IMG/VR virus record: IMGVR_UViG_3300002053_000026
Coordinates: 1-53,277 of that record
From: a virus
Reading direction: 5' to 3' (one strand)
Length of the DNA: 53,277 nucleotides
The translations under genes were made by a program, and so were the position numbers. Below are positions 11,407 through 52,408 of the stretch, piece after piece. The notes under the pieces are model-generated. The model was given only the letters and a program-made list of their open reading frames with translations, did not search any database and was not told the DNA's origin. Position 1 is the first letter of the stretch. Each line of letters opens with the position of its first letter.

Positions 11407-12562
11407 TTTCTTTATTGGCTCCATATTCGTCAGACAACATTTTTTCTCTTGACACCTTTTTTAATATAGGATATATTTTGTTGGCTAAATCTTCGCCCAA
11501 CATCTCACCAACATCATTGGTTGCGTCTGGCGTAATACAAAAAATTCTGAAATATTGTATTAAATTGCGTTCTAGTTTTTCCATAGTTCTTTTGCCAGCC
11601 TCATCATTATCAAACGTACAAATTATTGTTAATGCCCCAGCATTCTGAAGCATAAGCCTCTGATGTCTGGACATATTTAATCCCAATAAGGCTATACTGT
11701 TGCGTATACCGATCATTTCATATGCCCATACATCCCCTGGTCCTTCACATAAAATTACTGTACCTGTTTTTCTGATAAACGGTTTAGCATACCAAATATT
11801 GTATAGGCATAGTTCACTATGAAAATTGCGTGAATGCTTCCATTTGGTGTAGATGCTTTTATATTTTGGTTCTGGACATTGTATTCTTTGTGGATGATGA
11901 TGCATTCCACATTTATTACATTTTTCATAAATACTACGACCAGACCAACCAACAACGTATTTTCCTGTTTCGTCTAGAATAGGAAAAAATGCTCTTTGAT
12001 ACATTGGTTTGCCCTTAGTATTACAGAATGATATATGATATCGATTAATGATCTCTTGTACAATACCTCGTTTTGGATAATAAATCTGGTCTGATTTCAA
12101 GTATGGAATAAATGTTGCAAGTGGTGTTCTATTTTTCTGTGTCGTAAATTGTTTCTTTCGATGTTGTTTTATTATTTTAGCTATTTCCATATCCTGAATT
12201 GTAGTTTCGTCAATATCATATTGTTTAAAGCCCAATATCTTGGCTATAAAATTAACAGTTTGTTGAAAATTCCATTTTCGCTTTGTCCTATGACTCATAG
12301 TACCACGAACTAATCCAAAAATACTATTGGATGGACCTGTAATAGGATTGCAATGACATCCTCTTGTTTTGCATTGCCAGTGATTGGAACGGATTGCCCA
12401 GAACATTGCTCTTGTATTATCTCCACCATGGACTGAACAAGCAGACTGTAAATAATCGCATCGCTCAGTGTATTCAATATTTAACGCATCAAAAATTTCT
12501 GCAACACGTTCACATGCACGATTTTGAATAAATGAAATTTCCTGTGCGCTAAATTGTTTCAT
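11390..12562 (-). CDS. dnaG-like: DnaG-type DNA primase
   Basis: 391 residues. An N-terminal zinc knuckle is formed by C42, H45, C64 and C69. The TOPRIM domain shows CEGPGDV (272-278) with the catalytic Glu and FDNDEAG (317-323) with the metal-binding acids. A second Cys/His patch (C215, C218, H221-223, C229) precedes the TOPRIM and is unusual. It makes RNA primers for lagging-strand synthesis with the DnaB-type helicase encoded immediately upstream, whose last 14 nt it overlaps. The family is clear although it is shorter than bacterial DnaG and lacks an obvious helicase-binding C-terminus. Confidence 0.85.
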   Translation of the reverse strand: MKQFSAQEISFIQNRACERVAEIFDALNIEYTERCDYLQSACSVHGGDNTRAMFWAIRSNHWQCKTRGCHCNPITGPSNSIFGLVRGTMSHRTKRKWNFQQTVNFIAKILGFKQYDIDETTIQDMEIAKIIKQHRKKQFTTQKNRTPLATFIPYLKSDQIYYPKRGIVQEIINRYHISFCNTKGKPMYQRAFFPILDETGKYVVGWSGRSIYEKCNKCGMHHHPQRIQCPEPKYKSIYTKWKHSRNFHSELCLYNIWYAKPFIRKTGTVILCEGPGDVWAYEMIGIRNSIALLGLNMSRHQRLMLQNAGALTIICTFDNDEAGKRTMEKLERNLIQYFRIFCITPDATNDVGEMLGEDLANKIYPILKKVSREKMLSDEYGANKENGESI

Positions 12563-13988
12563 GACTACAATTCTCAAAAATAGATTGAGCAATGACCGAA
12601 AATGGTTTTCCTTCTGATAATTTCGCTATTCGCAAATTATCAATTATATTAATATATTCACCATTTTCCATGCCTGGACCAAAACGTGTGTCAGTTACTA
12701 CCAATTTTTTAGTACCGTTAGATGGTGGATCTTCGTTAAGTTCAGTTTGTATTTTCTTTTTCAAAATTGTAAAATTTGAACAGAGCCATCCAATTCTATC
12801 TGATCCAGATATTACATCAGCACCTTCTTTTTCTATACCGTCACGATTTAATTGAACAGTGGCTAAGATTGGTAACTTAAATTTAACAGCAAAATTATGT
12901 AACGTTGTCGTTAAAAATCCCAATAGTTGATATTCTTGTAAATTTTTCTTAAATCCACTGTCGTCCATTAATTTGATATAATCATAAATTATTAAACACG
13001 GTTTAGCCGTACCACTATCAGTGAACCCAACCCTTTTAGATAGCCATCGTCTAGCTATTGACATAATTGCATGTGGTGCTAAGCCCGCTATGGAAAAATG
13101 ATCAATCAGCAATTTTTCAACATGCTTTTGACAACTCCAAATTGCTTCTGATTCATGTGAATTATGAATAAATTTGCCAGTTTCTATATGTTCCAATTCT
13201 ACACCAGACACCAAGGAAGTGAGGCGATGTAATTGTAAATCATTTGTAAGTTCGGTATCTAAATATAATACTGGAATATTATTTTCAGCCATGTTGCGGG
13301 CAATGTTCAAACAAAGAAAGCTCTTTCCAACTTTTTGTCTAGCGCCAACCACATTAACTGTAGCTGGTCTGAAACCACCACCAATGGCTATATCCCATGA
13401 CGGAAATCCGGTCGGCAGGCCAACGATATCTTTTGGTGTAGATGCAACTGCTGTCATTGCTGTTTTGAATTTTTGTCCTAGAGATATTATATTGGCATCA
13501 TGCGCCATTATTCGACCAGTAAATTCAAAAATGGGTTCTTCTATTTGGCTTATGATAGAATCAACATCTTCTGCTCCAGTAATATTTGTAAGATTCTTTT
13601 GTACAGCTTTAGCAGCAAACCATCCTTTGCGAGCCAAAGATAATTTATACACAGTGCTTACCAATAGGCGCACATTATCTTTAGATAATCCTACTTCATC
13701 AATAATAGATGTTAAGTATTCAGAATATTTGCCACCGTTAGCAAAATTGGTATGCCCAAGAACTTTAGCAGCAGTTTGTATACTTGGGATATCGAATGTT
13801 TTAGCATCATTATTGTGAACCAGATGAGATAGTATGCTAAACATTTCCTGATTGCATTGCCAGTAAAAATCGGTTGTGTTTAATATATCTTCTACTTCGA
13901 AAAAGCAATCAACACCATGGCTGGTAATACCAGCCAAAATGGCTCGTTCTATACCCGAATCTTGTAATATGGCATTTGGTTTGTTCAC
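12549..13988 (-). CDS. dnaB-like: DnaB-type replicative helicase
   Basis: 479 residues from a GTG at 13988, behind AAGGA, overlapping the upstream TGA (GTGA). The N-terminal helical domain is followed by a RecA-fold ATPase with Walker A GARQKVGKS (215-223), LYLDTEL (241-247), Walker B LIIYDYIKL (332-340) and a TVQLNRDG sensor region, in the order of DnaB. It unwinds DNA as a hexameric ring at the fork. It precedes the primase, the usual pairing. Nothing suggests an intein or truncation. Confidence 0.87.
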   Translation of the reverse strand: MNKPNAILQDSGIERAILAGITSHGVDCFFEVEDILNTTDFYWQCNQEMFSILSHLVHNNDAKTFDIPSIQTAAKVLGHTNFANGGKYSEYLTSIIDEVGLSKDNVRLLVSTVYKLSLARKGWFAAKAVQKNLTNITGAEDVDSIISQIEEPIFEFTGRIMAHDANIISLGQKFKTAMTAVASTPKDIVGLPTGFPSWDIAIGGGFRPATVNVVGARQKVGKSFLCLNIARNMAENNIPVLYLDTELTNDLQLHRLTSLVSGVELEHIETGKFIHNSHESEAIWSCQKHVEKLLIDHFSIAGLAPHAIMSIARRWLSKRVGFTDSGTAKPCLIIYDYIKLMDDSGFKKNLQEYQLLGFLTTTLHNFAVKFKLPILATVQLNRDGIEKEGADVISGSDRIGWLCSNFTILKKKIQTELNEDPPSNGTKKLVVTDTRFGPGMENGEYINIIDNLRIAKLSEGKPFSVIAQSIFENCSHETI

Positions 13989-22100: not shown

Positions 22101-24662
22101 TTATGCGCCTTTCTCTGTTATTTCACAGGTTCCATTAGGACAATCATTAACTGATGCCCGTTCTTTGGTTTCTTCTAAGTGATTTTTTGCTTCAGATAAT
22201 GGAAGTGGAACAAGTGGTGATTCACCCCTACTACCGTTTCTGTAAATTGTAATACCTTTAAGTTCTCTAATATAACTTAATATATCTTTAGATAATTGAT
22301 CCACTGAATAATCTTCTCGCAAATTAATAGTCTTAGAAATAGAATTATCTATGTGTTTTTGACAAACTACCTGCATAGCAAGATGTGCTTCGGGAGGAAT
22401 GTCATGCGCGCTTTGAAAATGCTCAATCGATTTACCATCCTTTAAAAACTGTTTTAACAAAGGATGCACAACTACTTCTACCGATTGATCTCTTTTTTCA
22501 TCTTTGTGGATATTATTATGTTCATTAAAACGTCTTTCATATATTGGTTGAAAAAGTGGTTCAATACCAGATGAACAACCTGCCACAATAGATATTGTTC
22601 CAGTTGGAGCCACACAAAGTAAAGCACAATTCCTAATACCATGTTCTTTTATTAAACGATGAAATCTACGAGTTAGACATTTTTTCACAAATCCAGTTTT
22701 TACGTGTTGATCTGTATCTAGATTATGGAACGATCCCTTTTCAATGGCAATTGCAATACTAGCGTGATATGCTTGTTTCTTGATAAAATCCATTACTTTA
22801 TCCACAACGTTTCTTGCTTCTTGACTAGAATATTTTAAGCCAAGTTCTAACAACATATCATGAAGTCCCATTACACCCAAACCAATTCGTCTATTTCTTT
22901 GAGATGTTTCTTGTATTATAGGCAATGGATAATTATTTTGATCTAACACATTGTCAAGAAATCTAACTCCTATAGCAACTGTTTCTTCAAGTAAATCCCA
23001 GTCAATATTTTCATTAACAATGTGAGTATGCAGATTAATTGCTCCCAGATTACAACAATCCGCATGGGACAACCATTGCTCGCCACATGGATTAGTGGAC
23101 AATAAATCACACTTATAACTTATGGTATTCATTTCATTGGCTAGACTGTAATTAAGTAGTCCCGGTTCACCGCTTAACCATGAATTGTATATAATTTTAT
23201 CCCAGATATCTTGGGCAGACATTCGTCCACGTTCTTCACCTTGCCACTTAAACACTACTTCCTTTTTGCTGTCAAGCAATTCTAAAAATTCATTGTCAAT
23301 CAAAACAGATATATTAGCATTCTTTAATTCTTTTTTATCTAATTTTACTTCCATAAATTCTCGAAGATCAGGATGGTCATATCTCAAACAAAAGAGTATG
23401 GCAACTCTTCTACCACCTCCTTCTTTCAATTCATTACCAACGGCATTGATAGCCCGCATTAGACTAACAGCACCAGTAGCTTCCCCTCCGGTACCACGGA
23501 TTGCACTACCTCTTGGACGTATTTTGGAATTGTGTTGGAAAAATCCATCACCGATAAATGTATGTGTAGATGTACTCATAGCGATAAGTTTTTGTTCTCC
23601 AATATACTCTATCGAATGAATTTTAACATGCTTGTTGTTTTTACTATAAATTTTAGCGCCATTCCAAATACTATCACAATTTGGCCATATTTTAATTGTT
23701 TGACAATTAGCAAGAACCTTCATAGAATCCCATTTAGAAGACATAACATATTGGTAACAATTATTTGTGCTATTTTTATATATCTTATAATTAATGTCCA
23801 GGCATTTTAAGATATGGCCAATCTTGTCAAATATTGGTCCCCTATTTTGTCCTATGCTTAATCTTGAATTATATTTTCTACCCCCATCTTTCAGAATTGG
23901 TTGGTCTGAATAAGCACCCTTTAATATTTCACCCAACCATGCACAAGATTCTATGTCATACGAATTAGTTGGCCATGGATCACAGGCGTATGCTAATACA
24001 TGGTTTATGGTAATGTCTTGAGCTTGCACCCAATCAAAACTGTCTTTTTTGTGTTTATAATTTTTCTTGATTTTTCTTGCCAATATGGGGTGAGTAGATG
24101 AGACAATCATTTCTCCTTTTTCTGTTGTGATTTTATATGATGGCAGAATAATTGGGTTAACAGAAAGCACTTCTGCTGGTCGTAAATGACGACCAGAACT
24201 ATTATTTTCTTCATCTACTCCAATAATTTTATCACCAACATTCAATCGCTCAAGTGGTATCCATTTAAAGTTTCGTGTTAATACCTTAGTTTTGGGGCTC
24301 ATACAAAAGTTAATACCAACTCCACCACCAGTACCAGATATGATAGTGAAAGCCCTTAATGTATCTCCCCATCCTTCTCTGGAATCAATATTCTCATCAC
24401 AATAAACAAAACAATTAAGTAACTGTCCTCTTGGGCGACCTGCTCCACGCCATATTCTTCCGCCAGGAGAAAAACGATTAGTTTGTAGTATTTCTAGAAA
24501 ACGTTCAAAATATTCATCACGTTTAACACCAGACTCGGCATCCGCCATTGTTTTAGCCACTCGTTTACATGCCTGTTCAAATGTTTCTTCTGGATGAATA
24601 GCATATCTGTCTTTAAAGATACGTTCGGCAAAACCGATTGGTTTATACGTTGGGAGCCCCAT
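22101..24662 (-). CDS. nrdJ-like: Class II (B12-dependent) ribonucleotide reductase carrying an intein
   Basis: 853 residues, or 594 after removal of the intein at 120-378. RNR landmarks: RFSPGGRIWRGAG, LLNC (C84), GTGGGVGINF interrupted at the intein, RPRGSAIRGTGG, NPCGE (524-528, radical Cys), the Cys pair at 841 and 846 for thioredoxin-type reduction, and PTGTIS. It reduces ribonucleotides to deoxyribonucleotides with adenosylcobalamin, so no small subunit is needed and none is present. It is coupled to the HD gene at its start. Splicing is required for activity because the insertion breaks a conserved active-site loop. Confidence 0.85.
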   Translation of the reverse strand: MGLPTYKPIGFAERIFKDRYAIHPEETFEQACKRVAKTMADAESGVKRDEYFERFLEILQTNRFSPGGRIWRGAGRPRGQLLNCFVYCDENIDSREGWGDTLRAFTIISGTGGGVGINFCMSPKTKVLTRNFKWIPLERLNVGDKIIGVDEENNSSGRHLRPAEVLSVNPIILPSYKITTEKGEMIVSSTHPILARKIKKNYKHKKDSFDWVQAQDITINHVLAYACDPWPTNSYDIESCAWLGEILKGAYSDQPILKDGGRKYNSRLSIGQNRGPIFDKIGHILKCLDINYKIYKNSTNNCYQYVMSSKWDSMKVLANCQTIKIWPNCDSIWNGAKIYSKNNKHVKIHSIEYIGEQKLIAMSTSTHTFIGDGFFQHNSKIRPRGSAIRGTGGEATGAVSLMRAINAVGNELKEGGGRRVAILFCLRYDHPDLREFMEVKLDKKELKNANISVLIDNEFLELLDSKKEVVFKWQGEERGRMSAQDIWDKIIYNSWLSGEPGLLNYSLANEMNTISYKCDLLSTNPCGEQWLSHADCCNLGAINLHTHIVNENIDWDLLEETVAIGVRFLDNVLDQNNYPLPIIQETSQRNRRIGLGVMGLHDMLLELGLKYSSQEARNVVDKVMDFIKKQAYHASIAIAIEKGSFHNLDTDQHVKTGFVKKCLTRRFHRLIKEHGIRNCALLCVAPTGTISIVAGCSSGIEPLFQPIYERRFNEHNNIHKDEKRDQSVEVVVHPLLKQFLKDGKSIEHFQSAHDIPPEAHLAMQVVCQKHIDNSISKTINLREDYSVDQLSKDILSYIRELKGITIYRNGSRGESPLVPLPLSEAKNHLEETKERASVNDCPNGTCEITEKGA
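23529..24305 (-). mobile_element. Intein inside the ribonucleotide reductase gene
   Basis: 259 codons encode an intein between GINF and SKIRPRGS. It starts with Cys (CMSPKTKVLTRNFKWIPLE, block A), has STHPI in block B, and ends FFQHN before a +1 Ser (blocks F and G). The central region holds AWLGEILKGAYSD, like one weak LAGLIDADG motif, followed by about 70 divergent residues. It can probably splice, but any homing endonuclease looks degenerate or half-size. The site is in a conserved RNR loop, a known type of intein target. Confidence 0.82.
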
Positions 24663-25294
24663 TAATTATCTATTCCTTCGATTTGAATATTTCCAGCATT
24701 GTCAAATTGATACCTATCATCGCCTGGCTGTTTTTGTAGATATCCAGAAATAATTAATTTAAATGGAGCCAAAAAACGATCATAATATTGTTCAACCACT
24801 CCATAAGACGCCGAATCTGCTTCTCGTAATATAAACCAATTTTCTATATTATCATGTCCAACATCTGCTATGAATTTTCTTATGGTTTGTTCTTTAAACG
24901 ATCCAACAAGGTCATACATATGCATTGATATTAAACGACAAACTCTATCAATTAAATATTCATTGGCTCCCCACTCAACCAATTTAGTTTTGGCAATTCT
25001 AACAGATTTATTTACATGACCAGGAAACTTTGATATTTTTTGATTGTCTAATGATACAATCTCATACTCATATTTACCTAAATCATGAAAAAGGCCAGAC
25101 AGCAAAGTTATCCTATTCTTTATTCTTAACATATCTAATACAGTCATCGTATGTTCCCATACGGATTTTTTATCTCGTTGTATAACTGTATGACTAGCTT
25201 TTAATTCAGCAAATTCGTTGTTGGTGTCTTTCCAATAATCGCTAGGATTATCAGCAGATAACATACCATTGATAACTATATTAACTTGATTCAT
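24662..25294 (-). CDS. HD-domain phosphohydrolase
   Basis: 210 residues. VWEHTM (H48), FHDLGK (H70, D71) and a later ISMHM give the HD metal-binding pattern, spaced as in HD domains of CCA-adding enzymes and dNTP or nucleotide phosphohydrolases. It may hydrolyse nucleotides or RNA ends. The stop TAA and the RNR start share bases (TAATG), so it is coupled to RNR; a dNTP-pool or tRNA-end role are both plausible. There is no nucleotidyltransferase domain. Confidence 0.68.
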   Translation of the reverse strand: MNQVNIVINGMLSADNPSDYWKDTNNEFAELKASHTVIQRDKKSVWEHTMTVLDMLRIKNRITLLSGLFHDLGKYEYEIVSLDNQKISKFPGHVNKSVRIAKTKLVEWGANEYLIDRVCRLISMHMYDLVGSFKEQTIRKFIADVGHDNIENWFILREADSASYGVVEQYYDRFLAPFKLIISGYLQKQPGDDRYQFDNAGNIQIEGIDN

Positions 25295-26109
25295 GGATAA
25301 TTTACCATGTTTTGATTTATAAAATTCTTCGCAGTTTTCATAGAAATCGCATATGCAAGATGCGGAATGATCTGACCATTAGTCAATGTTTCTACGCAGA
25401 ATGGAATTCCTATCATATAATAATGGTCGTTGTATTTTTTAAATAATCCGCCACCACTTGAACCAGGAGCAACTTGTGCTGTATGTCCATAAACTATAAA
25501 TTGTTCCAGATCATCATTATTAATAAGTATTTGTGTTATAATACCGGCAGTAGGTATCGGAATGTTGCCGAGTTGGCACCCAACAGCAAAAACGTCATCA
25601 AAAACACGAACTTGTTCTAACATTATATTATCTGCTAACCGTGCGACAGCCAATTTTCGTGCAGTCTTGAGCGACAATAATGATAAATCGCGATTTGTAT
25701 CTTCAGCTATTACATCAACATCGTATTTATGATAATCTCTATTTTGATGATCAAAAACTATTACTTTGCAACCGGTGTCTATTTTTTCTATATCAATTTT
25801 TCCTGTTAATGAATCAATATTTTCTATAACAACAATAAATCTAGTACGTGTTATATGTGCGTTTGTTAATATAAGATATTCTAATACATTGTTCAAATCC
25901 GTTTCTAAATAACCAATGATAGTTCCGGAACCACCACTATGGTGTGTTTGAACAAGAACAATCGTATCGCGTATTTCTTTCTGTCGGAGACAGATTTCAT
26001 CTATTAATTCTCTATTATCTTGTGCGGGAATTTTATTTGTTAGACCAATAGATAATATAAATATTGCGACAAGGGCATAAACAGAAATAAGCTGAATGCA
26101 AAGTTTCAT
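25291..26109 (-). CDS. Exported trypsin-like serine protease
   Basis: 272 residues. Residues 5-25 are a hydrophobic signal peptide or anchor, followed by a possible cleavage region (NKIPAQDN). The catalytic triad fits: TNAH (H85), NRDLSLL (D141) and PGSSGGG (S218). The fold matches S1-type DegP-like proteases without a PDZ domain. It would act outside the cytoplasmic membrane on host or phage proteins. It follows a lipoprotein gene and overlaps the HD gene by 4 nt. Such a protein in a replication-region operon is unusual. Confidence 0.75.
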   Translation of the reverse strand: MKLCIQLISVYALVAIFILSIGLTNKIPAQDNRELIDEICLRQKEIRDTIVLVQTHHSGGSGTIIGYLETDLNNVLEYLILTNAHITRTRFIVVIENIDSLTGKIDIEKIDTGCKVIVFDHQNRDYHKYDVDVIAEDTNRDLSLLSLKTARKLAVARLADNIMLEQVRVFDDVFAVGCQLGNIPIPTAGIITQILINNDDLEQFIVYGHTAQVAPGSSGGGLFKKYNDHYYMIGIPFCVETLTNGQIIPHLAYAISMKTAKNFINQNMVNYP

Positions 26110-26974: not shown

Positions 26975-27478
26975 TCAAATTATACATAGTCGCTTCATTT
27001 TATCAATTGCTTTATGCTTGATGCGGTGAACTGTCGATGGTACAATTCCATATTTTTGGGATATTTCTCTCATCGTCTCTTTACCGAAAAATGATCCTAC
27101 AATTACATTACGTTCCATACATGTTAAACATTCCATCAAATCTTTAATAATTAACTTTAAATCTGAATTAACGTTGTGCTCGGAGAGATCAATCATCATA
27201 TCTATTGGAATTATTTCAATTCGTTTGAATCTATTTTCCGCATCACGCATATGTCGAAAAACTCCAGATAATCTAGAATAAAGAAAAGTCATAAATGATC
27301 CAGTATGATTATAACAAATCATACATTTCAATAATTCTTCAAGAGCTTTATTTTTTAGTTCTTCAATTAAGATATTTTTTGCACCAATTCTAAAAGCTAA
27401 TTGGTGTATTAATGGAGCATACTGGAAACGAGCCAAATCGAAATATGCTTTTGTTATGCGACGACGTACTCTCATCAT
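26975..27478 (-). CDS. Sigma-70-family RNA polymerase sigma factor
   Basis: 167 residues from ATG 27478 (ATGATGAG, overlapping the ClpP stop). Residues 35-90 resemble region 2 (KALEELLKC, SFMTFLYSRLSGVFRHMRDA). The C-terminus has a clear region 4 HTH, TMREISQKYGIVPSTVHRIK. It could direct host RNA polymerase to phage promoters of a later class. It differs from T4 gp55, which lacks region 4. It is downstream of the clpP-like gene and coupled to it. Confidence 0.7.
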   Translation of the reverse strand: MMRVRRRITKAYFDLARFQYAPLIHQLAFRIGAKNILIEELKNKALEELLKCMICYNHTGSFMTFLYSRLSGVFRHMRDAENRFKRIEIIPIDMMIDLSEHNVNSDLKLIIKDLMECLTCMERNVIVGSFFGKETMREISQKYGIVPSTVHRIKHKAIDKMKRLCII

Positions 27479-28128
27479 TTGTTTAATTCCTGGACAATGG
27501 ACCGCTCTAAGGATGGTGTCCAAATACCATCTATCAAACCAATTTTAATTGCTTGTTTTGGGGATATCCATGCTGTTTCGTCCATTAATTTAATCAACTG
27601 TTTCATTGTAATTTTAAGTCTTTTAGAAAGACTAACCAATTTTGTACGATAATCATTTAACAAATAAGTTGTCATTTTTTTGTGTTGTTCTATTGGTTCA
27701 GAAACATTTTGAATACTGATGGAATGCAACATTAATGATGAATTTGGAGTAGCATATCTATGTCCATTAGTTCCAAAAGCGGCAATGATAGCACCCATTG
27801 AATATCCATGCCCACGTACAATAGTATAAATTGGACATCCGCACGTTAACATTTGGTCAATTATAGCATAACCAGAAGCAAAACACCCACCATGGCTATG
27901 AATATATATATATACCGGTTGTGATTCGGTGGCTAGAAATTGCAAATAGCTGCATACGTGTGCTGACATTGTTTCATCAATTTCACCAACAATTAATATA
28001 CGACGTGTTCGTATCAAAAATTCTTCTACCATTTCGTCTAGTTGAATAGGTGTAAGTGTTTCTATATATGTTTCACGTCCTATATTGGGCTTACGACCAT
28101 TCCACTGTTGTTTTTTATTGATTTTCAC
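27475..28128 (-). CDS. clpP-like: ClpP-like serine protease
   Basis: 217 residues from a GTG at 28128 behind GGAG. IHSHGG, GHGYSMGA (nucleophile S110), LMLHS (H135) and a C-terminal MDETAWISPKQAIKIGLIDG with the catalytic Asp match ClpP. The N-terminus has extra basic residues. It would form a barrel peptidase working with an AAA+ unfoldase. No ClpX or ClpA is in the window, so it may pair with a host unfoldase or another AAA+ ATPase here. It overlaps both the recombinase and the sigma factor gene. Confidence 0.85.
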   Translation of the reverse strand: MKINKKQQWNGRKPNIGRETYIETLTPIQLDEMVEEFLIRTRRILIVGEIDETMSAHVCSYLQFLATESQPVYIYIHSHGGCFASGYAIIDQMLTCGCPIYTIVRGHGYSMGAIIAAFGTNGHRYATPNSSLMLHSISIQNVSEPIEQHKKMTTYLLNDYRTKLVSLSKRLKITMKQLIKLMDETAWISPKQAIKIGLIDGIWTPSLERSIVQELNK

Positions 28129-29002
28129 ATTTTTCTCCAAAAGGATGATGGCGTTTATAAACATCCATTAACATGTTATTATTAATCGCTAAATAATTTT
28201 GTGTTGTTGATAAATGCTGATGTCCTAGTAAAATTTGTATAAGTTCTAAATCTACGCCACGATTCATCAGTGACGTAGCACAACTTCTACGTAATGTATG
28301 AGCAGTAGTATGTTTAATATTTGCTCGACGAGAAAGGGACATAAGCATATCGCTAACAGTACGACGGGTAATCCTTTTATTATTTGATTGAACAAATAAT
28401 GCATTCGCATCAGATCGACGGCCATTATTTATGTAATCAATAATAGCTTTAATACATCTTGATGTAGTTGGAACTATCCGTTCACGCCTACCCTTACCTA
28501 TTATTCTTATTTCGCGTTTGTTGAAATTTACATTTTTGAGATTTAGACTGCATAACTCAGATACTCGTAAACCACTATCGTAAAGAGTCAGTATAATTGC
28601 CACATTACGGCGAACGTTAATTGCTCGCCATGTAGATATATCTTGTTCCAAAATATCCAAAAGAATATCAACATCTGAGGGATTAAGAGCATTCGGTGTT
28701 CCCCTTTCTATTCGAATTGAATTCATGATATTTAGAATATTGGGATCAAGATATTTAAGGCTAATGAGATGGTGACACAAACAACGAATTGACATATATT
28801 TTCTGCGTATTGTCGTAGATTTAAGTTTACGCGATTTTAAATAATCAATAAATATCTCGATTGACCTAGCCGTCACCTCTTGTGTCCCTAGGAATGTCAA
28901 TAATTCTTGTACGTCATAGACATATGACGATAATGTCTCTTTTGATAAACCAAGTTCAGTCTTAATATATATTTTAAAATCATCCATGAGAAATTGTTTC
29001 AT
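28115..29002 (-). CDS. Tyrosine recombinase (XerC/D-like)
   Basis: 295 residues with the complete catalytic set: R146 in SGLRVSEL, K170 in GKGRRERIV, H235-x-x-R238 in HTLRR, H261 in LLGHQHLSTTQ, and Y270. The SAM-like N-terminal DNA-binding domain is present. It could resolve genome multimers or integrate the phage. No attachment site is obvious next to it; the tRNA 3'-half at 45534-45564 is a possible but distant candidate. Its stop overlaps the ClpP start. Confidence 0.85.
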   Translation of the reverse strand: MKQFLMDDFKIYIKTELGLSKETLSSYVYDVQELLTFLGTQEVTARSIEIFIDYLKSRKLKSTTIRRKYMSIRCLCHHLISLKYLDPNILNIMNSIRIERGTPNALNPSDVDILLDILEQDISTWRAINVRRNVAIILTLYDSGLRVSELCSLNLKNVNFNKREIRIIGKGRRERIVPTTSRCIKAIIDYINNGRRSDANALFVQSNNKRITRRTVSDMLMSLSRRANIKHTTAHTLRRSCATSLMNRGVDLELIQILLGHQHLSTTQNYLAINNNMLMDVYKRHHPFGEKCENQ

Positions 29003-29067: not shown

Positions 29068-29892
29068 TCATTTATTATGATTAGATTCTACTCCTTTTGT
29101 GCCATCATCTAAATCAACAATATTTAATCCATGTGCGAATAATGGCGCTTTTTCTTGTAAAATACGACATACCTTTATTGCTAAGGCACGAATCTCAACA
29201 TCTGCCGCTGGATTGGCACGTAATTTAATCAAATGACGCAAAGCTCTGGCGTTCATACTAACCACCATTTTCGTTTCAGTAGCATTGGGCAATACCGATC
29301 TAGCAGCTTGTCTGGCTTTCTTGCGCCTTTCTAGTTTACTATCAATATTCTGGTACATATCCGAAAGTTTTTCTGTTAATATCTCATACAATTGTCGAGA
29401 TTTTTCGCAATGTTCAATCCATGTTCTATATGTATCCGGGTCAATTTTTGCAAGTTCTTGAATGGCCGGAGGAATGATAAAAGACACACTTGAAGAATCA
29501 CAGTAGCGCTGAGACAATTGTGAGTATGATGCAATCCTGTGACGAACCAATTCATGTGAACATGAACGAGAAATATTCCAAATAGCAAAATTAAACTGTG
29601 AGTGTTCTAAAACAGATGTGTGTCCAATGTCAATTAGATTCTTAATATGATCGCTGTGAGACCTCCCCGTGGCTTCTTCCCCATACTTAGGCCATGACTG
29701 ATAACACATCCTTCCAGCTAACTCAACCAACCATTCACCATCATCGTCACCAAAAGACATCATCGACTTAAGTTTATCGGTAAATTCTGGCCACGAATAA
29801 CCGTGATCATCAAGAAATTTCATTACCCCATCAATTTCAATGATTGGTTTACCAATCAACGCTACTTCTGGCTCAGTGATAAACTCACCCAT
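29068..29892 (-). CDS. thyX: Flavin-dependent thymidylate synthase
   Basis: 274 residues from ATG 29892 (TGATG with the upstream stop, AAGGAAAGG site). The ThyX signature appears as RHRIASYSQLSQRY at 117-130, with SVLEH and the late SMNARALRHLIKLR block. It converts dUMP to dTMP using methylene-tetrahydrofolate and FAD, complementing the dCMP deaminase at 15304-15858. Length and motif order are normal. A 65-nt gap after it, before the recombinase, is AT-rich and contains TATAAT, but no good -35. Confidence 0.88.
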   Translation of the reverse strand: MGEFITEPEVALIGKPIIEIDGVMKFLDDHGYSWPEFTDKLKSMMSFGDDDGEWLVELAGRMCYQSWPKYGEEATGRSHSDHIKNLIDIGHTSVLEHSQFNFAIWNISRSCSHELVRHRIASYSQLSQRYCDSSSVSFIIPPAIQELAKIDPDTYRTWIEHCEKSRQLYEILTEKLSDMYQNIDSKLERRKKARQAARSVLPNATETKMVVSMNARALRHLIKLRANPAADVEIRALAIKVCRILQEKAPLFAHGLNIVDLDDGTKGVESNHNK

Positions 29893-30134
29893 CAACCTTT
29901 CCTTTCATTGTCAAAATATTTTTCAACAGATACATCCAACCGCTTCGCTTGTTGTCCTGCTTGTATTAATTTTCTTCCAATAACAATTGCCTCTTCTCCG
30001 GTAAAATCTAACGGAAAAAATCCTTTAGTCAAATGCTTATGTCTTCTGTAATCATAATAAATATTGACACATACGTCTGGTCCATCTCCCCATGTACATG
30101 AAATGTCTATTTTATCTCCAGTTGTGAGTTCCAT
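29892..30134 (-). CDS. Small unknown protein upstream of thyX
   Basis: 80 residues. It has a beta-rich start (KIDISCTWGDGPDVCVNIYY) and an amphipathic helix (EEAIVIGRKLIQAGQQAKRL). Its TGA overlaps the thyX ATG. No family recognised; two Cys in the first part are not spaced as a zinc site. Confidence 0.58.
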   Translation of the reverse strand: MELTTGDKIDISCTWGDGPDVCVNIYYDYRRHKHLTKGFFPLDFTGEEAIVIGRKLIQAGQQAKRLDVSVEKYFDNERKG

Positions 30135-30145: not shown

Positions 30146-30694
30146 TTATTTAGTTAATTTCCAACAATTCCCGTTTACAATAAGTTTCAAATTGTTGTCT
30201 TGAGCGAATTTATCGGTCACAAACATAACTGATCCCCAAGAATAATCGTGACCACCTAATGTTCCACCCAGTTTAATCTTAGGCCACCAAGCTTCCATGT
30301 CCCTTTTCACATTTTCTGCTACGTGAGAAGCATCAATAAAGCAAAAATCTACACTTCCATCATCAAACAGACTAGCTGATTCCGCGCTATCTCTTTGAAG
30401 AACAAATATGTTATCAATGAGTCCCAGTTTTTTCATGTTTGTTTCAAAAATTTGTCGCATATCTCTTGACTGTTGCGACTTAGTAGCTGGATCACGAGGA
30501 CTACCACCTTCACAATTATCAACTGTGTAGTACTCATTATTATTGTTTTGACAAATAGGTGCCATAACAGCAGTACATCTACCAGCAAAAAATCCTAATT
30601 CCACAACTATTCCATTATGAATATTATTACATATCTGTCTTACAAATTGTGCATCTTGTGCTGAAAACCAACCTTCTATATCATCCCATTTCAT
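30146..30694 (-). CDS. Class I SAM-dependent methyltransferase (Methyltransf_24-like)
   Basis: 182 residues. VVELGFFAGRCT is the SAM-binding loop, YYTVDNCEG the acidic end of strand 2, and DFCFIDASHVAENVKRDMEAW the motif IV/V region typical of CmcI/TylF-related methyltransferases. GGTLGGHDYSW follows. The substrate is unknown; it is far from the glycan module and could act on a sugar, RNA or small molecule. The start overlaps the upstream stop by 4 nt. Confidence 0.7.
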   Translation of the reverse strand: MKWDDIEGWFSAQDAQFVRQICNNIHNGIVVELGFFAGRCTAVMAPICQNNNNEYYTVDNCEGGSPRDPATKSQQSRDMRQIFETNMKKLGLIDNIFVLQRDSAESASLFDDGSVDFCFIDASHVAENVKRDMEAWWPKIKLGGTLGGHDYSWGSVMFVTDKFAQDNNLKLIVNGNCWKLTK

Positions 30695-31596: not shown

Positions 31597-31884
31597 CTAG
31601 TTTTCCTTCTGTTGTTCCCTGATTCTTGCCAATTCCCCCTCCTCATAAGCACAATAATCACAACACATGTGTTCTAGCGTATCATAGCATACTCCACACA
31701 GATAAAAATCATGAATTTTAGACCTGTTTTTAGATGTGTTGTTTACAACAGTCAAAACTGTAGCGCTATTACCTTCAGTAATTGTTTTATAACAACCACG
31801 ATATTTATGGTCTTTTCTTGTTCTTTGAACACGTTTAGTACGCATTGTCCAACATTCTGATGGTGATATACCTGGTTTTTTCAC
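31597..31884 (-). CDS. Small Cys-rich, probably zinc-binding protein
   Basis: 95 residues. The N-terminal half is basic (RTKRVQRTRKDHKYRGCYK). The C-terminal half has CGVCYDTLEHMCCDYC, a dense Cys pattern suggesting zinc binding. It follows the BrxL-like gene by 3 nt and so is likely co-transcribed with it. A DNA-binding role is possible. Confidence 0.57.
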   Translation of the reverse strand: MKKPGISPSECWTMRTKRVQRTRKDHKYRGCYKTITEGNSATVLTVVNNTSKNRSKIHDFYLCGVCYDTLEHMCCDYCAYEEGELARIREQQKEN

Positions 31885-31887: not shown

Positions 31888-33345
31888 TTAATCCTTCATG
31901 GTATAACTCAACTTAATTCCACCAAATTCACTTGGCGCAATAACAGCTAATTGTTGTATTACTCTTTGTCGTAAATCAACAGCTATATCTAATACAGTTT
32001 TCAACTCTTTTAAAGTAACTGTATCCGCTGTTTTGTGAGGAAACACCAGTTTTAACAATCCAGACCCAATTCTGACTAATGATCGCTGATTACGCTGAGA
32101 CATTTGACCAAAATCAACGTTACCAAGAATTAAAGATGCATAGCTTCTATCTCGCATTTTATGTATTATTTCACTCAAATAATCAGCCATAAAACCGTGT
32201 TGTCTTGCTAAACGTGCTTCGCATATTTGTGGTATTTTCCACCCAGGTATAAAACCGTGAATGCGATCTAAAAAAGCTCGATCTTGATTGATCATTGATG
32301 GTAACGGAGCAAACAAATTCCTGTATCTGGCGGCAACAATTTTTTGCTTACGATCACAATCGATATTGCCAGCAAACATTGTAGAACAGCCAGATGAAAA
32401 TTCAGCGGTACCCCTACCGAACCGACCGCTATTCATGAAATCCTTTAACATATCAGCAAGATCATTTTGGCTTGACCATTTATTCCCACCGCGTCCACTA
32501 GCAAATTCATCGAACATAACAACATCTTTATAGCCAACCAAACCAAGTTGACGCCTTAATTTATCATAAAATAATGATGCTACAGTGGTTTGACCACCAG
32601 ATACCACAAAACCATGAGAACTTAAGGACTGATAAGCAAACGTTTTCCCTGTCTCTGGTGGGCCAAGTTCTATCATATTAATATTAGATTCGATAAATGG
32701 AACTAATCTTACTAAATATAACCATTTTTCTGTATCAGAGAGATAATCAGGATCAAAACCGATGCTGGTAATAAGAAGATTAATCCATTCGTCATCGCTA
32801 AATTGTTCACGACGACTTATCCAATTATCAACATTAATGTTAATGATTTGAATTGGCCTGAACTCAGTTACCAAAAATGGATATAGTCTTTTCCTGATAG
32901 AGTAGGACTCATCATAAACAATTTTGAACACGCCCCACGCACCTGATGTGAGCAAAATTTCTCCATATTGAGCAATTATTTGTGGGTTAATTCTCACATA
33001 CTGATTACCGAGCGCCGTCACATCAACCCAATACTCATCCTTTGCTTCGTCGAGCCTACATCGAATATGGCCTATTAATACAAATTCACCACGTTCCCTG
33101 ATATGACTTTTAACCAATTCCTTTTGATCAGAATCCATAAAATGGTCATTTAATAATTTACTAATTTTCTCCAAACCAATAGTTGGATTTGATGGATCAA
33201 CCATTTGGGATAACAAATAATCGATTACAAAACTTGGCAATTTTCTCCACTGATCGTCCCATTTAGACATACTCTTATCAATAATAATTCCTGGTTCACG
33301 AAATATAACTCGCAATTTATTTTTTTCTTTTTCCCCAATCATCAA
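31888..33345 (-). CDS. brxL-like: BrxL-like AAA+ ATPase without Lon protease domain
   Basis: 485 residues. The N-terminal region (HIRERGEFVLIG, then a beta-rich part) and the AAA+ core follow BrxL of BREX defence systems: RPIQIININVDNW, QFSDDEWINLLITSIGFDP, Walker A GPPETGKT (228-235), SGGQTTVASLFYDKLRRQLG (249-268), Walker B VVMFDE (275-280), sensor AGNID and DRIHGFIPGW. BrxL is usually about 680 residues with a C-terminal Lon-like protease. Here the chain ends soon after a helical segment (VDLRQRVIQQLAVIAP), so the protease is absent. No pglZ, brxC, pglX, brxA or brxB is nearby. A DNA-binding ring ATPase is likely; its role in the phage is unknown. Confidence 0.8.
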   Translation of the reverse strand: MMIGEKEKNKLRVIFREPGIIIDKSMSKWDDQWRKLPSFVIDYLLSQMVDPSNPTIGLEKISKLLNDHFMDSDQKELVKSHIRERGEFVLIGHIRCRLDEAKDEYWVDVTALGNQYVRINPQIIAQYGEILLTSGAWGVFKIVYDESYSIRKRLYPFLVTEFRPIQIININVDNWISRREQFSDDEWINLLITSIGFDPDYLSDTEKWLYLVRLVPFIESNINMIELGPPETGKTFAYQSLSSHGFVVSGGQTTVASLFYDKLRRQLGLVGYKDVVMFDEFASGRGGNKWSSQNDLADMLKDFMNSGRFGRGTAEFSSGCSTMFAGNIDCDRKQKIVAARYRNLFAPLPSMINQDRAFLDRIHGFIPGWKIPQICEARLARQHGFMADYLSEIIHKMRDRSYASLILGNVDFGQMSQRNQRSLVRIGSGLLKLVFPHKTADTVTLKELKTVLDIAVDLRQRVIQQLAVIAPSEFGGIKLSYTMKD

Positions 33346-33353: not shown

Positions 33354-33611
33354 TTAATTAATGTTATCAAAAAGATCTAAAGCATCTGATCTTTCAACAA
33401 CAAGCTCATTTTCATCCATGATAGACTTAGGAATCGTCATATTAAATTCTATTAAATTCTCCAGACACGCAAGATGCATCCCGCCCATCAATCCTTCTAA
33501 ATCCGCAGAATAATTACAATCATCATCCCCCGGACCACAATACGTCATCTGATTACCCCAGAAGATTAATTCATCGCACATTATTTTTTGATGACATATC
33601 AAACAATTCAT
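33354..33611 (-). CDS. Small unknown protein with Cys pairs
   Basis: 85 residues starting MNCLICHQKI. CxxC and later Cys/His residues (YCGPGDDDC, GGMHLAC) make a metal knuckle plausible. It is the gene directly upstream of the BrxL-like one (8-nt gap). Upstream of it lies a GC-rich non-coding stretch. No family recognised. Confidence 0.57.
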   Translation of the reverse strand: MNCLICHQKIMCDELIFWGNQMTYCGPGDDDCNYSADLEGLMGGMHLACLENLIEFNMTIPKSIMDENELVVERSDALDLFDNIN

Positions 33612-41406: not shown

Positions 41407-42018
41407 CTACTTATGTTGTTCACTTAGTGTTCTTTTTATTGACCATCCACGCCAAAAGCGTGACTGTATTGTGCTTTTATTTATTCCTAATTCTTCTGCC
41501 CATGCTGCTATACACTGTGTTTTGCCTCTAAAAGATAGTAAATTATTTTTACTTCTGTTACGACTGTTCTGGACTGGCGTGACCCACCGACAGTTTTCTT
41601 TATAATATCCAAGATCGTTATTTATTCTGTCTAGCTGATGACCATCAGGGCGTTCCCCCATGTCGGATAAAAAATTATCAAATTTTAGCCACCGATCACA
41701 AACTGTAATACCTCTGCCACCGTATCTATGATATCTATTGTTGGATGGATCATTACATCTTCCCTTCATTCTTACCCACGAATGATATGTTGGTGATATT
41801 TTGTTTCTTCGCGAGTGTCCATGGAGGCAATTAGATGCTGATTCTACTCTTAGGCATCCACAGCTTTTTATTTTTCCGCTTAGTAAATGATAACCACGAA
41901 CAACAGAAGTCTTACCACAGTTGCACATACATAACCATGTTGTATGACCATGTTTGGTATTCTTATCACGCCTTATGACGGTTAATCTATTGAATTTTTG
42001 TCCAGTTAAATCAATCAA
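41407..42018 (-). CDS. HNH-type homing endonuclease (intact copy)
   Basis: 203 residues. Zinc-ribbon-like N-terminus (LTGQKFNRLTVI, C30/C32/C34, C53/C55), then GGRGITVCDRW, HQLDRINND (127-135) and CRWVT with the His and Asn/Asp residues of an HNH-like nuclease, then a C-terminal IAAWAEELGINKSTIQSRF helix-turn-helix-like segment. This is a common free-standing phage homing endonuclease design. It starts 1 nt after the stop of the GMP reductase gene, so it probably targets or invaded that locus. Homologues in this window: 927-1571 (broken) and 19906-19962 (relic). Confidence 0.78.
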   Translation of the reverse strand: MIDLTGQKFNRLTVIRRDKNTKHGHTTWLCMCNCGKTSVVRGYHLLSGKIKSCGCLRVESASNCLHGHSRRNKISPTYHSWVRMKGRCNDPSNNRYHRYGGRGITVCDRWLKFDNFLSDMGERPDGHQLDRINNDLGYYKENCRWVTPVQNSRNRSKNNLLSFRGKTQCIAAWAEELGINKSTIQSRFWRGWSIKRTLSEQHK

Positions 42019-43036
42019 TTAAGTTTTCCTCGGCATTGTTTCTTCCATAGACAATGAACTAACCATGACATATTGTCCCTTTTCTCTAAGTTCTTTAATA
42101 TTGTGAGCACCACTCATAGCTAGGCCAGACTTTATTTCTTTTGCAGAATTAAGAATAACATTTTCTGTTTCGCCTTTGTATCCGGTTTCAATCTCTATAC
42201 CTTCTGGCGCTATATCTGGTCTGCCAGAAGCGTTTCTACTGCTCATTCCTCTATAAACTCTTTTCCCATCTATCAATGGTGTACAATTAGTCCCTGCCAG
42301 CATGTAACCTATCATACATGCATCAGCACCAGCGAAGAGAGACTTTACCATATCTCCACCTGTTCTTAAGCCACCATCTACTATAATGGATGTTGATCTA
42401 TTTGTTGTTTTCTTGGTGGGTTTCAAGTATTGCTGATAATTGTGGGTACCCGTGCCCAGTTATAATTCTTGTGGTACAAGCAGCCCCCGGACCTATGCCG
42501 ACCTTAATTGCGTCAACACCATGCATTGCAAATTTAGTAGCTGCATCTCTGGTACATACATTACCAGCCATTATTATGAAATCATACGTATCTGAACATT
42601 TAATATCTACCAGAATATCAATGGCTTTATACATCATCTTATGGTCACCATGAGCCACATCTAAACACAGCACATTACATCCAACATCAAGTAATTTTTG
42701 CGCATTCCAATTTATATCCCCTTTTATGCCCATGGCACATCCAATATTTTTAGTGTTTTGATGTTTGGCATGAATGATTTCGGATGTTTGTTTTTTTATT
42801 TCCTCGTCTTCGGATAACCCAATATTTCTACTGATAATACCTAAACCACCAAGACGATCAAGAGTCACTGCCATTTCTGCGCCTGTTACAGAATCCATTG
42901 GTGATGATATAATCGGAATACCTAATTTTAACTTCCCACCCAAACATGTTGAGATGTTTGGTGTTGTGCGTGAATCTAGTTCTGAATATTGCGGGACAAG
43001 CAAGATGTCATTGAAACACAATTTCCTGTCTTGCAT
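42019..43036 (-). pseudogene. guaC-like: GMP reductase gene split by a +1 frameshift
   Basis: Two frames together give a GuaC-size protein (about 339 residues, no CBS domains). The first (43036-42398) has FNDILLVPQ, SSPMDSVTG, a CLDVAHGD block and GIGPGAACTTRIITGHGYPQ with the active-site Cys. The second, one base out of register (about 42426-42019), has IIVDGGLRTGGDMVKSLFAG, MSSRNASG and ETGYKGETENVI. The overlap region is GAAACCCACCAAG. The enzyme would convert GMP to IMP. It is either inactivated, mis-sequenced, or frameshifted on purpose; nothing visible proves programmed slippage. Confidence 0.78.
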
Positions 43037-43072: not shown

Positions 43073-44056
43073 TCAAGTCCATCGAATTTTAATAGGATGG
43101 GATACTGCTGCAATATCATTATAATCTACACATACATCCAAACAATTTTTAGCACAAATTGGATCAGCAATACTGTCATGTTCAAAAATCCATTGTAATC
43201 GTTCATTTCTCATATCTGGTCCAACTTCACCAATAGGATCGCCACCCTCTCGTAAATGGATAATACATGGGAAATGCCATTTACCGGCTACAGCCATATC
43301 GTCTAGTGCTAACCAACACTTACGACAGTTGCCTCCAAAAATTCCACGTACATTTCTACCAGCTTTCAAGTTCTCAATCCGGTACTTCAGGATCGGGTAC
43401 TTGTTCAATACCTCGTCTGGTAAATCGACCAGCTTGGTCAGAGCCTTGTTGTACTGTGCCGCTGGGATGACTCGGATATCCGAAGCCCCCAGGCTGTCCA
43501 CGAACAGCACAGCCTCAACACACTGGTCAACATTAGCCTCGGTGAAGACCATGCCAACGGTTACGTAGGTGATCTTGCTCAGGGTGCGGATAGACTCTAC
43601 AGTCTTCGCCCATGCACCCTTCACTCCACCAGTCATGTCCGTACCGACAGCGCAGCAGCCACTATCAAGACTGATAGAGAAGTCGTTAACACCCGCTCCG
43701 ATCAAAGCAAGATAGGTCTCAGGCTTTGCCGTACCATTGGTGGAGATTGCAATGCGCTCGACTCCACCTTCACGACAGCGATCAATCAACTTGCCCAGAC
43801 CCTTGTATAGAGTAGGCTCCCCACCGGAGAACCTGACGTTCTTTAGCCCTTGAGCAATCCAGAGGTTGACAGTTTTGAGCGCCTGTTTGAACGGCATATC
43901 TCCACGAATCTCCGGTCTTACACCACGGCAATACGGACACCGTAGGTTACAGCGATCCGTAAGAATCAACTCACACCGCTGCAACGGAGAGGTAGCGCTA
44001 GCGTTCAACGCACGCTTGTCAGATAGCGTGTAGAATCCAATGTCTTCAAGCTTCAT
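43073..44056 (-). CDS. Radical SAM protein with SPASM-like Cys-rich C-terminus
   Basis: 327 residues. TDRCNLRCPYCRG (C36, C40, C43) binds the catalytic iron-sulfur cluster; FSGGEPT and ISTNGT are the SAM-binding motifs. Cys residues in GGNCRKCW and CAKNCLDVC may bind auxiliary clusters as in MoaA/SPASM enzymes.  The substrate is unknown. The DNA of the first two thirds of the gene (about 43370-44056) is clearly GC-richer than the last third, so the gene looks mosaic. An ACCTCC site complement precedes the start, next to the tRNA genes. Confidence 0.78.
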   Translation of the reverse strand: MKLEDIGFYTLSDKRALNASATSPLQRCELILTDRCNLRCPYCRGVRPEIRGDMPFKQALKTVNLWIAQGLKNVRFSGGEPTLYKGLGKLIDRCREGGVERIAISTNGTAKPETYLALIGAGVNDFSISLDSGCCAVGTDMTGGVKGAWAKTVESIRTLSKITYVTVGMVFTEANVDQCVEAVLFVDSLGASDIRVIPAAQYNKALTKLVDLPDEVLNKYPILKYRIENLKAGRNVRGIFGGNCRKCWLALDDMAVAGKWHFPCIIHLREGGDPIGEVGPDMRNERLQWIFEHDSIADPICAKNCLDVCVDYNDIAAVSHPIKIRWT

Positions 44057-47918: not shown

Positions 47919-49478
47919 TTAATTTAATGTTACCTTTCTCTCGTTCGTGCGAGAAGATGAAATATTTTTTGTCAGATTGGCTGGTTTTGCATGTTCAGCA
48001 CACCATTGTCTTATTATTGACAAGCGCTCACCATCAGTTTTACAAAGTGGAATTATTTCGGAAATGGATGTCGTGAGATGTTCGGTTGATAATTCTGTTT
48101 TTTCTGAGAAAGCCAATTTTAGACTAAGTTTAACGATTTGTTCAATATCAGCACCGGTGTACCCACTCGTATTTTTGGCTAAATCTGGAATATTAAACTT
48201 ACTTGGGTTGCGATTTCTTTTGCTTAGATGAATAGAGAAGATTTCATATCGCTCCTGCTCATTTGGTAAATCCAGGCCATATATCTCATCAAACCGACCT
48301 TTTCTGGTTAGTTCTGGTGGTAAAGATTGTATTTGGTTTGCGGTTGCTATTGTATATATTGGTGATTTTCTGTCGTTTAACCATTTGATAAATGTACCGA
48401 ACACGCGACGGGATGAACCACCATCCATATCCCCAGTGCCACCAAAGCCCTTTTCAATTTCATCGACCTGTAAGACACAAGGAGCCATGCTTTCTAACAT
48501 TCTAAGTGCTTCTCTCATGTGGTTCTCAGATTCGCCCACATATTTATCCATCAAATTTCCAACGTCCATAGCTATTAATGGCAATTTTAGTTCAGATGCT
48601 ATCGCTGTTGATAGAAGTGTTTTTCCGCACCCAGGAATTCCGACCAACATTAATCCTCTTGGAAATTCAATGCCAAATTCACGTGCTTCGTTGGTGAAGC
48701 ATGGTTGATCTAATTTAACATGACGTTTAATTGCTTCATATCCGCCAACGTTATTTAAGCCACCATCTTGAGGTTCGACATATGTCAATAATCCTGATGA
48801 TCGGATTACTCCAGCTTTTTCCTCAATAATGGTCTTTACGGCGTCGAAATTTAATTCTTTATGTTTCCTTAATGTTAATGCGAGTCTATCTGTGATTTGT
48901 GATTGTGTCATACCCCGACATGCATCGATAATTTTTGGTATTATTTTATTGTCTAATTCGATTGATTGGTTAACCCCAGAACATACAAATTTAATTCTAT
49001 CATGTATGTGTTCATTGTCTGGCAATGCGAAATCTATACGTGTAATATCGTGTAAAAGCGGTTTTGGTACTCTAAATTCTGGACCAACGAAAATAATGGT
49101 CTGATATACCGAAGAAGCTATTCGTCTAATATCATCAAGGATACCTATTACTATATCATGATTTGGATATGTTTCATGCCACAAATATTCACCAAAATCG
49201 CGCAATATAAATATGGTTTCTTGATCAAATTCGAAAATAGCTTCTAGTTGTTGTTCTGGCTGTGCTGTCCGATTTGGTGCCTTATCTGGCTGACGACCAT
49301 TTATATCAGTCCATCCTCGCGAAATGGACCAAATATAAACTTTGCGACCGGTCTCGCCGATATCTGGTGTAATTTTTATTATGTCGGCTATTGCGCGATC
49401 TTTTTCAAAAGTATCGACATACAACAAAGTGTGACCAGAACATATGTAGTCTGTTATTGTTTTTTGAAAATTGTTCAT
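47919..49478 (-). CDS. Ycf46-like AAA+ ATPase
   Basis: 519 residues. The N-terminal 240 residues are the ancillary domain seen in Ycf46 (DTFEKDRA, GWTDINGR, IFILRDFGEYL). The AAA+ module has NNVGGYEAIKRH, FPRGLMLVGIPGCGKT (Walker A 280-287), QVDEIEKGF (Walker B 337-345), a TANQIQSLPPELTRKGRFDE sensor and arginine-finger region, and GYTGADIEQ in the small domain. This is an ATP-driven remodelling enzyme. Plastid and cyanobacterial Ycf46 has no settled function. It heads a cluster with DUF3150 and DUF1257 genes. Confidence 0.8.
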   Translation of the reverse strand: MNNFQKTITDYICSGHTLLYVDTFEKDRAIADIIKITPDIGETGRKVYIWSISRGWTDINGRQPDKAPNRTAQPEQQLEAIFEFDQETIFILRDFGEYLWHETYPNHDIVIGILDDIRRIASSVYQTIIFVGPEFRVPKPLLHDITRIDFALPDNEHIHDRIKFVCSGVNQSIELDNKIIPKIIDACRGMTQSQITDRLALTLRKHKELNFDAVKTIIEEKAGVIRSSGLLTYVEPQDGGLNNVGGYEAIKRHVKLDQPCFTNEAREFGIEFPRGLMLVGIPGCGKTLLSTAIASELKLPLIAMDVGNLMDKYVGESENHMREALRMLESMAPCVLQVDEIEKGFGGTGDMDGGSSRRVFGTFIKWLNDRKSPIYTIATANQIQSLPPELTRKGRFDEIYGLDLPNEQERYEIFSIHLSKRNRNPSKFNIPDLAKNTSGYTGADIEQIVKLSLKLAFSEKTELSTEHLTTSISEIIPLCKTDGERLSIIRQWCAEHAKPANLTKNISSSRTNERKVTLN

Positions 49479-51667: not shown

Positions 51668-52324
51668 CTATTTTGTTTCTATTTCATTAGTCAGTAAATT
51701 GAAATTAATTTCTTTGTCAAGAAGACATCCACGTAACCATTTGGTAAATTGAGATATTCTTATTCCAGCAGATATATTAGCGCAATATATAGTTGTTTTG
51801 GCTGTACATGAACCATTGTATGCTTCCGACTGAGGGAATAATGTTGTAAGGTAATGTTCACGAGAAGCTTCATCATAAACAGTGAATATTCTCATATATT
51901 CGGCGCTCATACGCCCATCTATAAATAAATCTGCATATTTTTGTGTTGCGTTGAATACAGTTTTTCTTGTGCTGATTTTATCTACACAACAGAATAATAT
52001 ACCACCAACAAAATAAAGTGGACTGAATTTTCTGTAAATAGCGGTAACTTCAGTCGTAGAATTTATAGCCATACAAACATCTTTTACAGCATCGACTTTT
52101 GGACGGCCCAAATCGGCTTCATAAAACCCCTGAGCAGCCAAATTTTCTACTTCAACTGTGTCAAAATCTATAATTGTTATGTTAGGTACACCGATCGCTG
52201 CTAGCTGAAGTGCTACCTGACGACCACCTGCACCTACCCCAACGACTGTTGCTCTGGTTTTAGATATTTTTTCAAACGGAACCAAATCCCTTTGTCTAAT
52301 ATCTCGATTGATTAAATTTTCCAT
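51668..52324 (-). CDS. E1-like ThiF-family adenylating enzyme
   Basis: 218 residues. VVGVGAGG (27-34) is the nucleotide-binding loop, IIDFDTVEVENLAAQG (51-66) the metal and adenylate site of E1/ThiF/MoeB enzymes. NGSCTAKTTIYC (170-181) supplies candidate catalytic cysteines. It lacks the second Rossmann repeat and E2-binding domains of eukaryotic E1. It would activate the C-terminus of a ubiquitin-like protein or transfer sulfur. A JAMM peptidase gene just upstream makes a conjugation/deconjugation pair plausible. AGAGGAAA precedes the start. Confidence 0.78.
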   Translation of the reverse strand: MENLINRDIRQRDLVPFEKISKTRATVVGVGAGGRQVALQLAAIGVPNITIIDFDTVEVENLAAQGFYEADLGRPKVDAVKDVCMAINSTTEVTAIYRKFSPLYFVGGILFCCVDKISTRKTVFNATQKYADLFIDGRMSAEYMRIFTVYDEASREHYLTTLFPQSEAYNGSCTAKTTIYCANISAGIRISQFTKWLRGCLLDKEINFNLLTNEIETK

Positions 52325-52342
52325 GTGGATTTTCCTCTATTA

Positions 52343-52408
52343 TTAACAAATGCTGTTTCCATACACAAATTGCAATTCATACCCTTTGACAGTTGGTCTA
52401 GTCGCCAT
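52343..52408 (-). CDS. Possible 21-residue peptide gene between JAMM and E1 genes
   Basis: ATG 52408 starts MATRPTVKGYELQFVYGN and ends in TAA shortly before the E1 ribosome binding site. It overlaps the TAG of the 40-codon ORF. It is very short and without a clear ribosome binding site, so the evidence is only its position and a plausible sequence. Confidence 0.3.
   Translation of the reverse strand: MATRPTVKGYELQFVYGNSIC

Follow-up and report, generated by a model that had tools for sequence, protein, structure and literature searches.

We found that large tailed phages of one lineage share a core gene for a BrxL-family AAA+ ATPase that has no LonP-like domain. The gene, brxL, was examined in a 53-kb virus record (G000; IMG/VR record IMGVR_UViG_3300002053_000026, 53,277 nucleotides), the whole of which is here called the window, and in its relatives. 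We lean towards the view that its product is a single ATP-driven ring on double-stranded DNA that works on the phage's own DNA, and not a BREX effector, a decoy or the main helicase. LonP-less BrxL is known; the literature searched, with few subscription papers within reach, describes no phage that has BrxL among its core genes.

The window protein belongs to the BrxL family and lacks the LonP-like domain

The brxL-like gene occupies positions 31888..33345 on the minus strand, as indicated by its open reading frame, by Pfam, NCBIfam and PDB matches and by an AF2 model; the plus strand of this region is stop-rich. The first-pass annotation had counted 485 residues here, corresponding to a TTG start at 33345. 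The frame stands, but the ATG of the next codon, at 33342, is preceded by GGGAG and coincides with the methionine to which the N-termini of homologues align, so that a product of 484 aa is likelier. The four blocks from which that annotation had recognized a BrxL-type protein (GPPETGKT, SGGQTTVASLFYDKL, VVMFDE and DRIHGFIPGW) are all found in the product, and profile searches agree with the assignment. Both PF20442 (BrxL_N; E = 1e-24, residues 19-144) and PF13337 (BrxL_ATPase, with lid; E = 1.1e-102, residues 157-477) match above their curated cut-offs, NCBIfam TIGR02688 matches at E = 5.2e-128 (427 bits versus a cut-off of 329), and the best PDB matches are the BrxL structures 8EMC and 8EMH, with 8EMC at E = 5.9e-85 over residues 18-482. 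A PADLOC search of the window protein likewise returned BrxL. The protein is a BrxL-family member, with a match far above chance.

The frame stops at the ATPase lid/linker, where the LonP domain of type-1 BrxL would begin, as the annotation had reported; the C-terminal LonP-like or HKD domain of type-1 BrxL was not found, and complete lineage members are 472-500 aa long. Downstream of brxL the window holds small ORFs, a methyltransferase-like ORF (30146-30694) and then thyX, and no protease domain that would complete the protein lies adjacent to the gene. The annotation had further taken a Lon-like protease to be the normal end of BrxL. This domain is indeed missing, but BrxL of type-4 BREX lacks it too (PMC12839542), so its absence is not abnormal for BrxL as such. 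The product also matches phrog_6542 ('protease') at E = 1e-9. Two virus-encoded AAA+ ATPases of 425-440 aa from a rudivirus and a lipothrixvirus, SIRV1 ORF440 and AFV2 ORF425, have been labelled 'Lon protease' on sequence only (PMC4124505). They probably correspond to PHROG 6542, and they differ from the window protein in their ~15% identity to it and in belonging to archaeal rod-shaped or filamentous viruses.

Conserved motifs and predicted fold

Across the phage lineage, Walker A, Walker B (E280) and the sensor-1 asparagine are invariant or nearly so. DNA-contact residues have been defined on Acinetobacter BrxL as S264/R265, R104 and K287 (PMC10164562). The S264/R265 pair is R/R in nearly all lineage members, the R104 position is mostly A/G/S in the phage clade and K287 falls in a variable insert, the latter two positions varying in type 1 as well. 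The AF2 model of the window protein (pLDDT 89.6, pTM 0.89) places DNA-bound BrxL (8EMH) first in a fold search (TMq 0.83, E = 1e-46), followed by MCM helicases (E ~1e-10, TMq ~0.43), and the best viral matches of this predicted fold are a SIRV9 protein (TMq 0.59) and AFV2 ORF425 (TMq 0.53). MCM helicases share with the phage protein a related AAA+ class and the fold of the N-terminal region, but with an identity of 10-16% and BrxL families matching better, an identification as MCM was rejected and MCM remains a distant structural match.

A lineage of large tailed phages carries brxL as a core gene

An IMG/VR scan with an alignment of phage, type-1 and type-4-like sequences yielded 100 BrxL loci, of which 80 were kept. 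One phage lineage comprises 26 records including the window, with BrxL copies 46-76% identical and a single BrxL in each record examined. Using the tyrosine recombinase (XerC-like; 28115..29002, minus strand), which is conserved beside thyX, as bait, we obtained 23 contigs at at least 44% identity, 21 of which reach past thyX while two are cut. In all 21 contigs reaching far enough, brxL lies upstream of thyX in the same gene order, and the ThyX thymidylate synthase gene (29068..29895, minus strand) is downstream of brxL in 23/23 loci tabulated. The order runs from the genes at 36392, 35865 and 34714 through a zinc-ribbon gene, brxL, variable small ORFs, thyX and the recombinase to a ClpP-like serine protease (27475..28164, minus strand), followed by three small genes, a trypsin-like protease (25291-26109), an HD-domain protein (24662-25294) and an intein-bearing ribonucleotide reductase (22101-24662), the last three also on the minus strand and in the same conserved block.

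BrxL is conserved at the level of the replication proteins. Its identity to the relatives G001 and G005 is 75/71%, next to 77/72% for the polymerase, 77/72% for DnaB and 77/76% for RecA. The dN/dS of brxL is 0.026-0.049 and that of ThyX 0.024-0.055, whereas the recombinase and the trypsin-like protease reach 0.10-0.16 (Nei-Gojobori; the same three pairs from L002, L003 and L008, with dS partly high). The patchy presence and fast evolution of an accessory defence or anti-defence gene are therefore not what is seen here, given 21/21 contigs and a dN/dS of ~0.03. Fixation, purifying selection and intact motifs point to an active enzyme that would do something every member needs, although core status alone does not name the process served. 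The GC content of the locus ranges from 29 to 61% across the lineage, so the hosts are probably many.

The nearest records in the phage collection are ~35% (polymerase) and 32% (recombinase) identical, with no close cultured member among them. A cellular origin was considered and rejected: a scan of genome contigs with lineage-strict patterns gave one match, on a 22-kb contig in a Nitrosospira MAG. This contig (L043; QIFK01000064.1) is of the same size as the viral contig L004, and may be a misbinned phage or a hint of the host.

Small genes flanking brxL

The first-pass annotation had suggested both small Cys-rich neighbours as partners of BrxL, and had proposed a survey of phage genomes for the three genes together. 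Upon comparing the loci, the upstream gene recurs with brxL and the downstream one does not. Directly upstream of brxL in the window is a gene for a small zinc-ribbon-like protein of 85 aa (33354..33611, minus strand) with a CxxC...HxxC pattern and, in nearly all copies, a C-terminal R[ST][DN]AL tail. Of the 21 related contigs long enough to show this region, 17 have the gene upstream of brxL, although the two are not neighbours in every case. The protein evolves fast (dN/dS 0.3-0.57); judged by this pattern of occurrence, it is a possible BrxL partner. Its R[ST][DN]ALxxx tail recalls the hydrophobic tails that bind sliding clamps, without their usual glutamine, a likeness that is speculative. 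The Cys-rich ORF of 95 aa directly downstream (31597..31884, minus strand) belongs to the variable region that separates brxL from thyX, and a single other lineage (L053/L057) has a match to it, a weak one at 34%; it is probably not a BrxL partner.

Relation to BREX genes and to other BrxL proteins

We observe neither PglZ nor PglX in any of 15 lineage records (the window and 14 relatives of up to 181 kb, which may be incomplete), nor does lineage brxL have a PglX, PglZ or BrxC-like gene within ~8 kb, BrxC having been sought in these flanks only. The annotated absence of other BREX genes thus extends beyond the window, and by the PglZ/PglX tests the phage BrxL is not a BREX component. LonP-bearing BrxL proteins, ~670-720 aa where complete, are mostly found beside PglZ or PglX. 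Like type-1 BrxL of Acinetobacter (8EMC/8EMH), with which it aligns over the N-terminal region and AAA+ domain and which is its best fold match, the phage protein has intact Walker motifs, but it differs in the missing C-terminal domain, in an identity of ~36%, in inserts that follow Walker B and sensor 1 and are specific to its clade, and in its genomic setting as a virus core gene apart from PglX and PglZ. It shares the missing C-terminal extension with type-4 BREX BrxL, yet the copies of MT835511 and MT835963, called type-4-like by length and position, are 25-28% identical to it and far apart in the tree. A run of large ORFs, which by look resembles a defence operon, precedes the copy of MT835511.

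In the tree, the phage lineage groups together with 100/100 support and has a long stem; it falls outside every type-1 row with LonP (99/97, reduced tree), and the LonP-bearing BrxLs are on branches separate from it. The type-4-like rows, only two and assigned without a profile, form a separate 100/100 branch, with the phage clade beside type 1. A second group of short BrxL proteins (L068, L069 and L096; IMG/VR contigs of 55, 260 and 350 kb) is like the phage lineage in having no LonP (493-496 aa), a single BrxL per record examined and no PglZ or PglX in its three whole records, but is 33-36% identical and has other neighbours, namely HNH, polysaccharide deacetylase and ParB genes, with DnaB in the two large contigs. 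No terminase was found there with three families, and the viral nature of these contigs rests on IMG/VR. Approximately unbiased (AU) tests did not discriminate between single and multiple capture by phages (second short group joining the phage lineage, p 0.50) or between LonP gain and loss (LonP-bearing BrxL as one clade not rejected, p-AU 0.26).

Among the INPHARED records, four 'phage' BrxL matches (two Acinetobacter MD-2021a, two Salmonella) are type-1 BrxL, and the two inspected carry host-type BREX operons; a BrxL match in a viral genome is not in itself evidence of a BREX system. L062 was rejected as an orphan BrxL, with LonP present and PglZ nearby. The Lon domains of most BrxL are described as dead. 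The divergent 712-aa BrxL of L062 (8001-10136, G020), with a PglZ-like frame of 973 aa nearby, appears from its residues to have retained both the GPSAG serine and the GGI..K lysine expected in an active protease.

Proposed function and alternative explanations

Type-1 BrxL needs ATP and DNA for ring formation and has an ATPase stimulated by double-stranded DNA; its rings are hexameric or heptameric, loops of the N-terminal region and AAA+ domain grip the DNA, the C-terminal domain joins two rings, and helicase or strand-exchange activity could not be shown (PMC10164562, Shen et al. 2023). By analogy, six or seven copies of the phage BrxL would, with ATP, assemble on double-stranded DNA into a ring whose corresponding loops grip the DNA; because the ring-joining domain is missing, the protein would form single rings rather than barrels. 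Its occurrence in phages without the protease-like tail and without the tested defence partners suggests that viruses use a DNA-gripping ring on their own DNA, where it may, less surely, act as an ATP-driven remodeller or translocase. The window also encodes a DnaB-type replicative helicase (12549..13988, minus strand), which rules out BrxL as the only replicative helicase. In 10 lineage records no SF2 (PF00271), UvrD_C_2 or RuvB family matched above the cut-off, so that no second motor of the branch-migration type was recognized, missing family matches not being proven absence. RuvB_N gave sub-threshold matches only, which in the window fell on the AAA protein at 47919-49478. Together with DnaB, these results favour an auxiliary DNA motor that takes part in replication or recombination; candidate steps are the start or restart of replication, or recombination-dependent replication with branch migration. 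Of the roles that the first-pass annotation had offered, that of a replication motor for the phage itself fits best.

Core-gene fixation, conservation and the absence of PglZ and PglX argue against a decoy or a defence island. As a decoy or dominant-negative antagonist, which the annotation had also entertained, a LonP-less BrxL would join host rings or occupy DNA or partner sites and so block restriction, and a homologue that lacks the ring-joining domain of host BrxL (PMC10164562) is what one might expect. At ~36% identity to host BrxL, mixed rings are unlikely, and full catalytic conservation under a dN/dS of ~0.03 is unlike an arms-race decoy. BREX is moreover patchy in bacteria, whereas the gene is fixed across a lineage with probably many hosts, and we regard this role as improbable. 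Defence against rival phages (superinfection exclusion), by BrxL alone or with the zinc-ribbon protein, draws on BrxL being a restriction factor and on the variable small genes between brxL and thyX. Known BREX restriction, however, needs further components and methylation marks, none of which were found, and defence genes are usually accessory whereas phage brxL is fixed; we give this explanation as little credence as the decoy.

A function away from DNA, with the AAA+ ring as an unfoldase or assembly chaperone that perhaps feeds a nearby protease, is unlikely, if slightly less so. The AAA+ class includes unfoldases, and the conserved block to which brxL belongs also encodes the ClpP-like and trypsin-like proteases, but the ClpP-like gene is a separate gene rather than the missing LonP domain and matches phage head-maturation proteases best, the N-terminal region is the BrxL DNA-binding module with MCM helicases as the nearest structures after BrxL, and an informal look saw no ClpX-type docking feature. 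A ring ATPase of a family that binds double-stranded DNA could also serve as a packaging or ejection motor, as the annotation had suggested for packaging. This is highly improbable: the lineage has its own terminase large subunit (phrog_9 in 10 relatives, phrog_2 in G014) and portal, both present in the 161-kb relative G001, in which brxL lies in a nucleotide-metabolism block on the strand opposite to the terminase and portal genes.

A BrxL that is core to a phage lineage ties a bacterial defence factor to the DNA metabolism of viruses, and as a minimal, partner-free protein it is a simple system in which to find the ring's action on DNA. The MCM-like ring of BrxL hints at BREX interfering with replication. 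A further reading, doubtful at present, is that BrxL-type rings began as LonP-free DNA motors of viruses or shared mobile elements, that phages kept them as core machines of replication and recombination, and that BREX recruited them and extended them with LonP or nuclease tails. On this view the phage protein would display the native activity that has proved elusive in BREX BrxL. The tree is compatible with such an origin without showing it (p-AU 0.26).

Other features of the window and its relatives

Besides DnaB and ThyX, the window encodes a primase, a DNA polymerase III alpha-like protein, RecA, an SbcD-like exonuclease, the ribonucleotide reductase, two RNA ligases and three tRNAs. No iteron-like array was found upstream of brxL, and the GC-skew inflection is not at brxL, so there is no sign of an origin beside the gene. 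The intein-like insert of the ribonucleotide reductase (~260 aa) starts with CMSPKTKVLT and ends with HTFIGDGFFQHN before a serine; the reductase of L003 is without such an insert, and in that of L002 the intein-like inserts differ and occupy other positions. A dehydrogenase-like gene (42019-43036) is split into two overlapping frames but forms a single frame of 336-362 aa in several relatives; the frameshift is real or due to sequencing. A radical-SAM protein (43073-44056) is 92% identical to that of G001, versus 30-79% for other shared genes, probably reflecting a recent exchange. The segments 927-1307, 1317-1571 and 41407-42018 are related to a single protein family and all match L003 2425-3084, as paralogous or broken copies at both window ends. 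Finally, a ThiF/E1-like gene preceded by a JAB-domain-like gene (51668-53250), common to the window, G001 and G005, resembles a pair for ubiquitin-like handling in a phage.
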